A stretch of 64,000 nt of DNA, from NCBI RefSeq assembly GCF_011762095.1, contig NZ_JAASQO010000007.1:124001-188000 (forward strand). Direction: 5' to 3'. Position numbers and translations under genes: made by a program. The notes beneath the pieces were generated by a model, which saw nothing but the letters and a program-made list of their open reading frames with translations, searched no databases and was not told the DNA's origin. This DNA is from Parvibaculum indicum. GTDB taxonomy: Bacteria; Pseudomonadota; Alphaproteobacteria; Parvibaculales; Parvibaculaceae. How positions within the stretch are numbered: position 1 is the stretch's first letter; each line of letters starts with the position of its first letter. Of this stretch, positions 23,137-26,700 are shown one piece after another.

Positions 23137-25440
23137 TTACTCGGCGGCGACGCCGAGTTCTGCTCTGAGGCTCCTTGCCGCCTCGACCATGGTGCCCAGC
23201 GCGGCTTCGGTTTCCGGCCAGCCGCGCGTCTTCAACCCGCAATCCGGATTGACCCAGATATGTTCGGCCGGCAGGCGGCTTGTCGCCAGCCGGAGCAGGT
23301 CTGCCATCTCCTCGGTCTTCGGTACGCGGGGCGAATGGATGTCATAGACGCCCGGCCCGATTTCGTTGGGGTACTCGTAGTTCACGAAAGCATCGAGAAG
23401 CTCCATGCGCGAGCGCGATGTCTCGATGGAAATCACATCCGCATCCAGCGACGCAATCGCCTCGATGATATCGTTGAACTCCGAATAGCACATATGAGTG
23501 TGGATCTGCGTCTCGTCCTTCACGCCGGAGGCGGAAAGACGGAAGCACTCCGACGCCCAGTCGAGATATTCGTTCCAGCGTGAGCGGCGCAGGGGCAGCC
23601 CTTCGCGCAAGGCCGGTTCGTCGATCTGGATCATGCCGATCCCCGCCGCCTCCAGATCGTTCACCTCGTCGCGGATGGCGAGCGCAATCTGGCGGCACGT
23701 CTCCGAGCGCGGCTGATCGTTGCGCACGAAGGACCATTGCAGGATCGTCACCGGCCCGGTCAGCATGCCTTTCACCGGCTTTTCGGTCAGCGACTGGGCG
23801 TAGGCCGACCATTCCACTGTCATCGGATGCGGCCGCGATACGTCGCCGAAGATGATCGGCGGCTTCACGCAACGCGAGCCGTAACTCTGCACCCAGCCGA
23901 ATTTGGTGAAGGCAAAGCCGTCCAGCATCTCGCCGAAATATTCCACCATGTCGGTGCGCTCGAACTCCCCATGCACCAGCACGTCGAGGCCGAGCTTTTC
24001 CTGCACGCGAATACCGCGTTCGGTTTCGGCCTTCAGGAACTCTTCATAGGCTTCGCCGGTCATCTCACCCTTGCGGAACTTCGCACGGGCCTGGCGTACC
24101 TCTTTCGTCTGCGGGAAGGAACCGATGGTCGTCGTCGGCAGCTTCGGCAATGCGAAATGCGCCAACTGCGTCCTACGCCGCATAGCGAAGGCGCTTTTGC
24201 GATGCGCCATATCTGGCGTTATGGCCGCCATGCGTTCGCGTACCTTCGGATTGTGCGTCCGCTCCGAGGCAAAGCGCGTGCGCTGCGCCTTTGCAGACGC
24301 TTCGAAAACATCCGCGACGGCGGCACGGCCTTCGTTCATCGCCCGTGTCAGCGCTTCGATTTCGCCGAGCTTTTCCTGCGCAAAAGCGAGCCAGCTTTTG
24401 AGTTCGTCATCCAGCCCGCTTTCGAGCTCCAGGCTATAGGGGACATGGAGAAGCGAACAGGAGGTCGAGAGGATCAGCCTGTCGTCGCCCATCCGCGCCA
24501 GCGCATGCTGTGCCAGCTTGTGCGCCGCCTCGAGATCGGCCCGCCAGATATTCCGCCCGTCGATCAGGCCGAGCGACAATGTCTTGTCGGAGGGAAAGGC
24601 GTCGATGGCGCTTTCGATCGTTTCAGCGCCACGCACGGCGTCGAGATGGATTGCAGCCACCGGCAATGCGAAGGCCATATCGCGATTGTCCACCGGCAGT
24701 TCGTCGAAATAAGCAGTGAGGTGAATTGACAGTTCCGGCACCTCCCGGGCGATCCGCTCGAACGTCTCACGGTAGATGGCCCGCTCGCGGTCGGAGAGTT
24801 CCAGCGTGAGGCAGGGCTCGTCGAGCTGCACACATTCCGCGCCCTGGGCCGCGAGCCCCTTCAGCACCTCCAGATAGACCGGCAACAGCGCGGGCAAAAG
24901 TTCCGATGGCGCAAAGCCGTCCTGCGTCGCCTTGCCGAGCATCAGGAAGGAGACCGGCCCCAGCAGCACGGGACGCGTCGCATAGCCCAGCGATTTCGCC
25001 TCGGCGAATTCATCGAAGGGTTTGCGCGAGGCGATGCGAAAACTCGTCTGCGGCGAGAGTTCCGGCACGATGTAGTGATAGTTCGTATCGAACCATTTCG
25101 TCATTTCCATCGCAGCGACGTCACGCTTGCCGTCCTGCGCACCCCGGGCCATGGCGAAATAGGTCGCGAGATCGACATCGCCGTCCACGCGCCCGAAACG
25201 CTCGGGGATCGCGCCGAGAAGGCAGCACATGTCGAGCACCTGATCGTAGAGCGAAAAGTCGTTGCTCGGAATGTAGTCGATGCCATGGCTTTTCTGCGTA
25301 GCCCATGCGGCGGCGCGCATGGCAGCGGCTGTTTCCTGAAGCGCCTGCGTGTCGCCATCCGACCAATAGGTCTCCAGCGCTTTCTTGAGTTCGCGCCTCG
25401 GGCCGATACGGGGATAGCCGAGTGTGGCTGATCTGGTCAT
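23137..25440 (-). CDS. metE: Cobalamin-independent methionine synthase
   Basis: A 767-residue enzyme transferring methyl from 5-methyltetrahydropteroyltri-glutamate to homocysteine. Both barrels are present: N-terminal [20 protein letters not shown], and C-terminal zinc ligands H649 and C651 (HTHMC), E673 (ISIETS) and C734 ([11 protein letters not shown]), matching H641, C643, E665 and C726 of E. coli MetE with an offset of 8. AAAGAGGA precedes the ATG. It lies 108 bases downstream of the thioesterase gene on the same strand, and both lie below a cobalamin riboswitch, fitting repression of MetE when B12 allows MetH to work. Confidence 0.96.
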
Positions 25441-25548: not shown

Positions 25549-26349
25549 TCAATCGAGACGCGGCGGCACCTGAGCCGGACGGCCCTTGTCGTCCAGTGCG
25601 ACCATGGTAAAGCGTCCCACGGCGCTGGAGCGGACATCGCCCGTCATCGGATCCTCGACATCGAGATCGACGCCGACGCGAATGGAACTCTTGCCCGTCA
25701 TGAGGATGCGCGCAGTGAGAATGGCGAACTCGCCCACTTTCACGGGGCAGCGGAACTCAACCTCTTCCGAGGCGGCCATCACCACGGTCATGCGGCAATG
25801 GCGCGTCGCAGCGACGAAGGCGGCCTTGCCCATCATCGACAGCGCTTCCCCGCCGAACAGGATATCGCGGTGATTGCTGGTGTCGGGAAAGACGACTTCC
25901 ACGAACTGCGTGAGATTGTCGTCAGGCGGCGGCGAAGCGACGGCCGACGGCGGCGGCATTGGCGCTTCCGCTTCGCCAATCGATGCCATCACCATGCGCC
26001 CGCTCACGGCCCTCTGCCGGTCGCCGGTCAACAGGTCTTCGGCGACAAGCTCGCACATCACGTCGCAGCTGTTCCGGCCCGTTTTCACGATATGGGCGGA
26101 CAGTTCGGCAAGCTGCCCTGGCAGCACGGGCTTACCGAAAGCGACATCATTGATGGCAGCCGTCACCATGCGCCGGCGCGTGAACCGCGTGGCGGCGATA
26201 TAGCCTGCCCTGTCCATCAGGGCGAGCGAGGCGCCGCCGAACAACGTGCCGTGGTGATTGGTCTGCTCGGGAAAGACGAGTTCGGCTATTCGCGTAAAGG
26301 GGATGGCCGGCATGGGTGCCGGCGCGCAGAGGCCCAAAGGGATTTCCAT
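25549..26349 (-). CDS. Tandem-hotdog acyl-CoA thioesterase
   Basis: A 266-residue protein with two 4HBT hotdog domains (about 15-125 and 145-255) joined by a Pro-rich linker (MPPPSAVASPPPDD). Domain 1 has PEQTNHHGTLFGGASLALMD with the catalytic-type Asp at residue 46. Domain 2 has PDTSNHRDILFGGEALSMMG, where that Asp is replaced by Gly174, so only one half keeps the acid. Such asymmetry is known in double-hotdog thioesterases like ACOT7. It should hydrolyse acyl-CoA to free acid. ATG 26349 (AGGACA upstream) is preferred over GTG 26394. It lies between the cobalamin riboswitch and metE. Confidence 0.82.
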   Translation of the reverse strand: MEIPLGLCAPAPMPAIPFTRIAELVFPEQTNHHGTLFGGASLALMDRAGYIAATRFTRRRMVTAAINDVAFGKPVLPGQLAELSAHIVKTGRNSCDVMCELVAEDLLTGDRQRAVSGRMVMASIGEAEAPMPPPSAVASPPPDDNLTQFVEVVFPDTSNHRDILFGGEALSMMGKAAFVAATRHCRMTVVMAASEEVEFRCPVKVGEFAILTARILMTGKSSIRVGVDLDVEDPMTGDVRSSAVGRFTMVALDDKGRPAQVPPRLD

Positions 26350-26468
26350 GATTGTGTCCTGTCTGAAGCAACGAAATACGCCGCCAGCGGACACAGTCGG
26401 ATGGATGCAACCGGTTCGTCGTTTTGTGTTTGCCGGTTATGACACCGGCGGGTCTTTGTGTTCTGCAT
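26286..26468 (-). CDS. Possible 60-codon leader ORF below the cobalamin riboswitch
   Basis: ATG 26468 has the best Shine-Dalgarno in this leader (GGAGG, 5 bases upstream) and is the first start codon after the riboswitch. It would encode a basic, Arg/Gln-rich 60-residue peptide (MQNTKTRRCHNRQTQNDEPV...) with no recognisable domain. It ends 63 bases inside the thioesterase gene, in a different frame. It could be a regulatory leader peptide or a chance frame; composition gives no support for a stable protein. Confidence 0.3.
   Translation of the reverse strand: MQNTKTRRCHNRQTQNDEPVASIRLCPLAAYFVASDRTQSWKSLWASARRHPCRPSPLRE
26432..26449 (-). promoter_or_regulatory. Leader hairpin upstream of the thioesterase gene
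   Basis: GCCGGT (26432-26437), a 6-base loop and ACCGGC (26444-26449) form a perfect 6-bp stem in the transcript leader, between the ATG at 26468 and the thioesterase start at 26349. There is no T tract on the minus strand, so it is not an obvious terminator. Confidence 0.45.
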
Positions 26469-26472
26469 CTTT

Positions 26473-26499
26473 TCCTCCAGGGTACACCCCGCCCCTTGG
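26473..26499 (-). promoter_or_regulatory. Riboswitch expression-platform hairpin touching a Shine-Dalgarno
   Basis: On the minus strand CCAAGGG (26499-26493) can pair with CCCTGG (26482-26477) with one bulged base. The 3' arm runs directly into AGGA of the ribosome site (26476-26473) before ATG 26468. This suggests translational control by cobalamin, though the alternative pairing was not computed. Confidence 0.5.
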
Positions 26500-26516
26500 T
26501 TCGCGTTGACGGCGTA

Positions 26517-26700
26517 ATGGCAGGTCTCCTGGCTCACAGGTCTCCGATCTTCCCGGCCTTCCCGGCATCCTGCGGCGGACGCCAGTGGCAATTGAGGTCG
26601 ATCTCTCTGCTTACAGTTGCGGGGGCAGCCGCGGCTTTGAACCGCGTTCCCTTTTCATCCACTGGCGTTACCCGGCGGAACCACTACACGCGGAAGACTA
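26517..26700 (-). ncRNA. Cobalamin riboswitch
   Basis: Read on the minus strand, the conserved blocks appear in order: GTGGTTCCGCCGGG near the 5' side, GATGAAAAGGGAA, a CGCGG-TTCAAAG-CCGCG hairpin, CTGCCCCCGCAACTGTAAGC, GCCACTGGCG (the B12-box region) and the 3' element AGCCAGGAGACCTGCC (26534-26519). The domain is complete. It is followed on the same strand by the thioesterase gene and metE. Adenosylcobalamin binding should turn expression off, saving the costly MetE enzyme. Confidence 0.94.

Follow-up and report, generated by a model that had tools for sequence, protein, structure and literature searches.

The window (the whole 64,000-nt stretch of DNA that was analysed, from Parvibaculum indicum) displayed on its minus strand, in this order, a TetR-type regulator, a cobalamin riboswitch, a hairpin P13, a GGAGG ribosome site, a leader ORF, an acyl-CoA thioesterase gene and metE. 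The individual features are the following:

27411-26755, minus strand: TetR-type regulator, 5' of the riboswitch
26502-26700, minus strand: cobalamin riboswitch aptamer RF00174, complete (129.3 bits, E 3.3e-32, model 1-189)
26619-26624, minus strand: L5 loop segment CCCCGC, complementary to L13 (read from the sequence, invariant in five loci)
26477-26499, minus strand: P13 hairpin CCAAGGG-GCGGGGTGTA-CCCTGG, with L13 GCGGGG at 26492-26487 (read from the sequence)
26474-26478, minus strand: leader Shine-Dalgarno (SD) GGAGG, 5 nt upstream of the ATG (invariant in all five loci)
26286-26468, minus strand: putative leader ORF, 60 codons plus stop, overlapping the thioesterase gene by 64 nt out of frame
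26464-26469, minus strand: 5' strand GAUGCA of a tentative helix A, covering the leader start codon
26432-26449, minus strand: hairpin C, GCCGGU/ACCGGC (from folds)
26404-26409, minus strand: 3' strand UGCAUC of the tentative helix A
26353-26395, minus strand: hairpin B, UGUGUCC.../...GGACACA, over the thioesterase SD (from predicted folds)
26355-26360, minus strand: thioesterase SD AGGACA (SD-like AGGA at 26360-26357, read from the sequence)
26346-26349, minus strand: thioesterase start AUGG, pairing with CCGA 26400-26397 in the consensus fold (three of the four pairs in the window)
25549-26349, minus strand: acyl-CoA thioesterase, 266 aa with two 4HBT (hotdog) stretches (PF03061), ATG at 26349
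23137-25440, minus strand: metE, cobalamin-independent methionine synthase (TIGR01371, 1112 bits, cut-off 930)

The best solved relative of the thioesterase was 2gvh (AGR_L_2016p). The riboswitch had been called complete in a preliminary description of this DNA, and the match to the full RF00174 model confirmed it; its score, like those of its counterparts in four relatives (128-132 bits), exceeded the gathering score of 31.5. The own genome (4.02 Mb) displayed six RF00174 matches. A weak cobalamin riboswitch of 33 bits was recorded there (L006, C8:53299-53432), followed by a 32-codon ORF with SD and ATG that ends in HDRRHALTLLCR, similar to the C-termini of CbtB-like ORFs; it is perhaps a shortened CbtB.

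Matches to the thioesterase occurred in seven of 40 genomes of the family. Five of these were close: the own genome (G000) and G014, G011, G003 and G006, with 63-66% identity. Weaker matches (31-35% identity) were found in G004, in G007 and as a second copy in G003. Leaders were compared over the five close loci, two of which (G014 and G011) are nearly identical, so that four distinct leaders were available; for G003, the thioesterase start was taken as a TTG that matches the position of the G006 ATG in the alignment, an alternative ATG lying 21 nt upstream. RF00174 was present upstream of the thioesterase gene in all five loci. Since metE accompanied it in only three of these genomes (G000, G014 and G011), the unit appears to consist of riboswitch, leader and thioesterase, with metE as an optional member. 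Behind the thioesterase gene of G003 and G006 lay a convergent gene that we take to encode a serine hydroxymethyltransferase, with a ZMP/ZTP riboswitch upstream of it (L041 3597-3684 and L042 3596-3681, minus strand). Among the 27 genomes of the genus, the MetH domain PF02965 was found in 27 and the methylmalonyl-CoA mutase domain PF01642 in 26, which leaves B12-dependent enzymes available to be replaced or relieved; one might guess that the thioesterase clears acyl-CoA that B12 enzymes cannot process.

Searching named genomes for the thioesterase returned one locus, in a Parvibaculum sp. MAG, and a scan of the class at E 1e-20 matched 10 of 385 genomes, eight of them beyond this genus. Among their loci (L162-L169), only L165 displayed RF00174, and there downstream of the thioesterase. 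One genome of another family (G408, L163/L174) carries, in this order, a riboswitch, metE and a thioesterase relative with the junction TGAGATG, its riboswitch sitting before metE and outside L163; another (G302, L165/L175), also from a different family, has the order half-length thioesterase match, riboswitch, metE.

Conservation was high where the riboswitch meets the leader. The CCAAGGG/CCCTGG hairpin was present as first described, leading into the GGAGG (26478-26474) that serves the ATG at 26468, and the first GG of this SD is part of the hairpin's 3' strand. We drew and named it P13 on the assumption that it follows class-I cobalamin riboswitch anatomy. L5 and L13 were complementary and invariant in all five loci, GGAGG began 8 nt 3' of L13, and the arrangement GGAGG-N4/5-ATG stood right behind P13 in each of them, while the spacer between SD and ATG varied by one base in length and by two substitutions. 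Between CCGTCAACGCGAACC and GATGCA, a span that takes in the P13 element and CCCTGGAGGAA, the five loci were nearly identical. The 15 bases of CCGTCAACGCGAACC (26512-26498, minus strand), which run from the end of the aptamer match into P13, showed no difference among the five loci and are similar to GTCACGCGCGAAC, which occupies the equivalent place in L012 and L030; no partner was found for them.

Folding gave a less uniform picture of P13. As drawn, it was absent from the lowest-energy fold of the long stretch, where unconstrained folding prefers other pairings, and the consensus fold put CGGGG/CCCUG in its place. When P13 was forced and both loops were occupied, predicted access to the leader SD went down in three loci (0.594 to 0.354, 0.387 to 0.305 and 0.298 to 0.181) and up in G014 (0.205 to 0.518) and G011 (0.026 to 0.084). 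An intrinsic terminator was ruled out as the expression platform: none was found on the riboswitch strand between 25400 and 27500, and the two terminator-like sites both lay on the opposite strand.

A second conserved structure covers the ribosome site of the thioesterase gene itself. Hairpin B (UGUCC/GGACA, -14.5 to -20.3 kcal/mol) takes its 5' arm from the conserved UGUCCGCUGGCGG block inside the leader ORF. The preliminary description did not list it and had reported another hairpin between the two starts, which was recovered as hairpin C at 26449-26432 and is weaker than hairpin B; the relatives displayed a hairpin of different sequence at about that position. Folding by itself left hairpin B closed, since each of the five loci had it in its lowest-energy fold, whether the short stretch was folded or a longer one that took in P13 plus 40 nt of gene sequence, and the predicted unpaired probability of GGA in the thioesterase SD was 0.001. 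It surpassed dinucleotide shuffles in each locus (p 0.007-0.042); for the variable part alone, p was under 0.05 in G000 and G006, 0.06 in G003, 0.12 in G014 and 0.18 in G011. Ranked by energy among 44 gene starts of the window, it came 3rd in G000 (itself counted), then 3rd, 3rd, 12th (G003) and 5th, and the mean access of the thioesterase SD over positions -14 to -6 ranked 7, 2, 2, 26 and 17 of 44. Hairpin B is strong, yet short of extreme when set against the gene starts of the window.

Without prompting, helix A and hairpins B and C emerged from the consensus fold of the alignment, together with a short stem that covers the thioesterase start. This fold paired 87.6% of the alignment cells, as against 25-49% when the alignment was slid, a level reached by 6 of 500 shuffles. 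Covariation alone was weak, since the three pairs changed on both sides were matched by 49 of 500 shuffles. One of these is a C-G for G-C in the SD stem of G003 and another, CCAA/UUGG against CCAU/AUGG, affects the start codon of the same locus, if TTG is its start; the third falls in hairpin C, a part in which the alignment has lost register and 76% of cells were paired. Whole-leader z-scores were weak in G003 (-0.44) and G006 (-1.27). The UGCAUC-GAUGCA pairing of helix A was possible in all five loci, with one G-U in two of them, and appeared in four of the five short folds (leader start to thioesterase start). It was missing from all five folds once P13 and 40 nt of gene sequence were taken in, and forcing it cost 0.1, 8.6, 9.0, 4.1 and 1.7 kcal/mol in G000, G014, G011, G003 and G006, respectively, for which reasons helix A is considered tentative.

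What could open hairpin B was approached by folding. Opening the stretch from thioesterase SD to start was predicted to cost 9.3-15.0 kcal/mol, and 8.4-14.7 kcal/mol with L13 unavailable. Occupying L13 shifted this cost by -2.2 to +0.8 kcal/mol, and by -0.7 to +0.8 kcal/mol for a slightly different open stretch in four loci (leaving out G011, nearly identical to G014). Since the cost barely changed, the state of the aptamer alone is predicted not to open the hairpin. This bears on the usual logic of translational B12 riboswitches, direct sequestration, according to which L13 or the 5' strand of P13 would, without B12, pair with the anti-SD arm (GGCGGG with UCCGCU, for example) and free the thioesterase SD; with B12 bound, the kissing loop would withdraw L13 and hairpin B would close, the leader ORF being incidental or secondary. 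Such a switch is consistent with the invariance of both UCCGC and GCGGGG in the five loci, as well as with the B12-metE leaders of other families (see below), where a putative metE SD hairpin was present in six of six and an occupied L13 made opening dearer by 0 to 5 kcal/mol. In the thioesterase loci, however, the small shift just mentioned argues against it. Moreover, the duplex between P13 and the arm was no better than with shuffled arms in the five loci (p 0.31-0.64), L13 alone did no better in four (p 0.54-0.82), and the invariant GGAGG and ATG would be left unexplained. We hold direct sequestration to be unlikely; that it keeps this much credit, in a co-transcriptional form, is due to nearest-neighbour folding, which ignores pseudoknots and kinetics. 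A ribosome modelled on the 5' arm raised predicted access to the thioesterase SD from 0.001-0.004 to 0.23-0.54 in four loci; in G003, access went from 0.165 to 0.02, against the simple picture.

The ATG, the GGAGG and the open frame of the leader ORF were found in all four same-genus genomes with a close thioesterase copy, which was the check first proposed for the ORF. The frames measured 60, 64, 64, 54 and 61 codons in G000, G014, G011, G003 and G006, respectively, and stopped 64, 64, 64, 49 and 71 nt beyond the thioesterase start; the 60-codon ORF thus lies out of frame within the gene as first reported, with an overlap of 64 nt instead of 63. Openness beyond the thioesterase start was therefore observed in five of five loci, against a per-locus chance of 0.34-0.53. 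Over the four distinct loci, which are only partly independent, the product is 0.435 x 0.488 x 0.345 x 0.48 = ~0.035, and frame conservation may be taken as moderate evidence for a leader ORF. The interval from ATGCA to TGCAT was at chance identity in G000, G003 and G006 (0.24, 0.20 and 0.30). Its lengths, 54 nt in these three and 66 nt in G014 and G011, are all multiples of three, an argument that amounts to one visible 12-nt indel. Silent and replacement differences before the thioesterase start stood at 2:2 by eye between the two close relatives, too few for the comparison to have any power.

The peptide itself was hardly conserved beyond MQ and a segment A-S/F-x-x-x-C-P-L-A/T. At the DNA level this segment is TGCAT...TGTCCGCTGGCGG, and because it was kept almost without silent change the constraint points to RNA rather than to peptide; likewise, the conserved blocks within the leader ORF are the arms of predicted RNA helices. 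Several other roles were considered and rejected. A known small protein was one of them, for which the leader displayed no Pfam match at E 0.001; in other genomes, sequences that we read as CbtB come after the hairpin. Amino-acid attenuation was discarded for want of any single-residue run in the leader peptides (by eye), and a programmed frameshift fusing leader and thioesterase because the two frames do not keep one relation to each other (offset modulo 3 of 2 in four loci and of 1 in G006). A repeated motif was excluded as well, TGTCCGCTGGCGG being present once in the own genome.

The frame could also have arisen by chance in GC-rich DNA, with GGAGG and AUG playing a structural part and the riboswitch acting through transcript stability or Rho. 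The lack of an intrinsic terminator on the riboswitch strand and a peptide hardly conserved outside helix arms would fit, and so would the abundance of overlapping open frames. Among the 44 long ORFs of the window (retained by a composition filter, each started at its first ATG), 10 had an out-of-frame ATG ORF overlapping their start, and long out-of-frame frames also followed P13 in five of the six B12-metE leaders. The frame alone is therefore unremarkable, and it is the SD that sets this leader apart: an overlapping leader with a 5-base SD occurred at one of the 44 ORFs, and it is the leader starting at 26468. Together with the retention of SD and ATG in all five loci while the spacer varied, this makes an untranslated leader improbable.

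We propose, with a probability of about 0.5, that a translational OFF cobalamin riboswitch acts on the leader ORF and that translational coupling carries the signal from this ORF to the thioesterase gene, and to metE where present. With B12 bound, L5 would kiss L13, P13 would be kept in place and the leader SD covered; as long as ribosomes are absent from the leader, hairpin B would stay closed over the thioesterase SD and the operon would be off. Rho or decay may also remove the untranslated mRNA. When B12 is lacking, ribosomes would start at ATG 26468, traverse the 5' arm of hairpin B and pass the thioesterase start, and we infer that a second ribosome could bind the exposed thioesterase SD during this passage. 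The preliminary description had expected the leader to interfere with the downstream start or to couple to it; the coupling half now has a basis, a thioesterase SD in a conserved hairpin with its 5' arm in the putative leader. A stricter version, to which we would give rather less than even odds, has the riboswitch control leader initiation only. Passage of the leader ribosome would then be the obligatory opener of the lock (hairpin B, perhaps with the start clamp and helix A), the ribosome being the moving part of an expression platform that five Parvibaculum-type genomes have kept, with the peptide free to drift.

Interference would have the opposite outcome: a leader translated without B12 could occlude the thioesterase start, so that the thioesterase is dampened or metE is controlled through transcript level and Rho only. 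Leader ribosomes running 49-71 nt past that start would cover it and could hinder initiation there, and in M. tuberculosis MetE is suppressed by a uORF that belongs to the metE riboswitch, as outlined in PMC11260477. Inhibition, however, would be the reverse of the OFF behaviour that B12 riboswitches usually show, and this at a gene preceding metE. In addition, the hairpin over the thioesterase SD already silences the gene in prediction, which calls for an opener rather than a blocker. An inhibitory leader thus seems to us very improbable, and coupling through the leader ribosome the better account.

How common is this layout? The exact P13-SD-ATG pattern was found in three of 385 class genomes (own, G011 and G237), a count that is too low because the pattern needs an exact loop and the draw omitted most of the genus; the match in G237 opens on a gene that we read as CobW-like. 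From 90 genomes, 134 B12 riboswitch places were listed and 115 analysed, 16 of the 19 omitted being among the 18 lowest-scoring. A regular expression for the B12 box matched only two of the 115, most likely because the stretches were cut inside the box, and a recognised L13 motif was absent in 20. With a loose list of SD sequences, an SD-like site followed by ATG or GTG lay within 50 nt after the L13 motif in 25 of 115 places, including the five thioesterase loci. In other alphaproteobacterial B12 riboswitches, the hairpin-SD-ATG layout opened directly on genes that by sequence reading are presumably CbtB-like (56-66 codons) or CobW-like, and one of the translated sequences read as a copper-chaperone-like gene with an N-terminal extension. 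L134 (G089:C3:327855-328087) displayed a B12 riboswitch and a hairpin, then AGGAG, ATGATG and an ORF of 29 codons, well upstream of what seems to be the structural gene, and is possibly a second case of a riboswitch-leader ORF.

The metE scan gave 42 matches in 41 genomes, of which 30 were made into loci and the 28 new ones checked for riboswitches. RF00174 was present in six of these 28, all from other families (L183, L175, L174, L185, L178 and L182), with the metE start 98-215 nt after the aptamer. In these six leaders, the 45 nt before the metE start folded with energies between -14.2 and -25.1 kcal/mol, and these folds paired the putative SD (in G352 only in large part), the hairpin often displaying CCUUUGCCCCCA...UGGGG. 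The long frames after P13 mentioned above start with GTG or ATG and come without a good SD; in G408, metE has an alternative start in an in-frame ATG that immediately follows P13. As all six leaders have a gene-SD hairpin without a good leader SD, such a hairpin by itself demands no leader ORF.

If the proposed relay is true, these leaders raise the general question of how the B12 signal reaches a distant metE SD hairpin in other alphaproteobacteria, and an acyl-CoA thioesterase would be tied to B12 starvation beside metE. The PMC literature on cobalamin riboswitches with uORFs, leader peptides, translational coupling, metE or thioesterase was not found to name the locus, and no paper was found in that on Parvibaculum riboswitches.

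Compared with known systems, the locus shares with the B12-metE leaders of other alphaproteobacteria a metE under RF00174 and a putative gene SD in a local hairpin. Those leaders differ by the absence of a good SD-ATG after P13 and of an intervening thioesterase, and by their arm sequences. Direct translational cobalamin riboswitches are of the E. coli btuB type. With these (btuB and the CbtB and CobW-like relatives), the present leader has in common the aptamer, the L5-L13 complementarity and a hairpin beside SD and ATG, but in the direct type SD and ATG start the structural gene, whereas here they start the leader ORF.

A close likeness is to M. tuberculosis, where a B12 riboswitch controls uPPE2, whose translation PPE2 requires (Kipkorir et al. 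2024, PMC11260477). The layout had been called unusual at first, and it is, although uPPE2 provides a precedent. As that system is outlined there, a short, out-of-frame uORF has its SD covered by a riboswitch hairpin bearing L13, as proposed here. The SD adjoining this hairpin likewise belongs to the uORF and not to the gene, and the downstream gene is reached through the uORF, as we propose here from sequence and folding. The junctions differ: uPPE2 has an AUGA overlap and acts mainly by termination-reinitiation, while AUGA is absent here and the ORF stops 49-71 nt beyond the gene start. According to the same outline, ppe2 has no obvious SD, whereas the thioesterase has its own, in a hairpin with its 5' arm inside the leader ORF. 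Gene, phylum and riboswitch subtype are also different, and the present case is a prediction from sequence and folding.

This second half of the leader recalls Salmonella mgtQ-mgtB (PMC8092293), where translating a small ORF releases the downstream gene's ribosome site from a stem-loop that inhibits it. In the present loci, the gene SD is predicted to lie in a stem with its 5' arm in the ORF, hairpin B being predicted in five of five. Yet mgtQ is an 8-codon ORF between two genes that needs ribosome-destabilising codons, and its abstract names no riboswitch controlling its start. A relay from riboswitch to uORF is already known from uPPE2, and what would be new is a different coupling geometry. 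If true, the locus would be a further B12 riboswitch signalling through a leader ORF, after M. tuberculosis uPPE2, and would unite the uPPE2 and mgtQ ideas within one leader.
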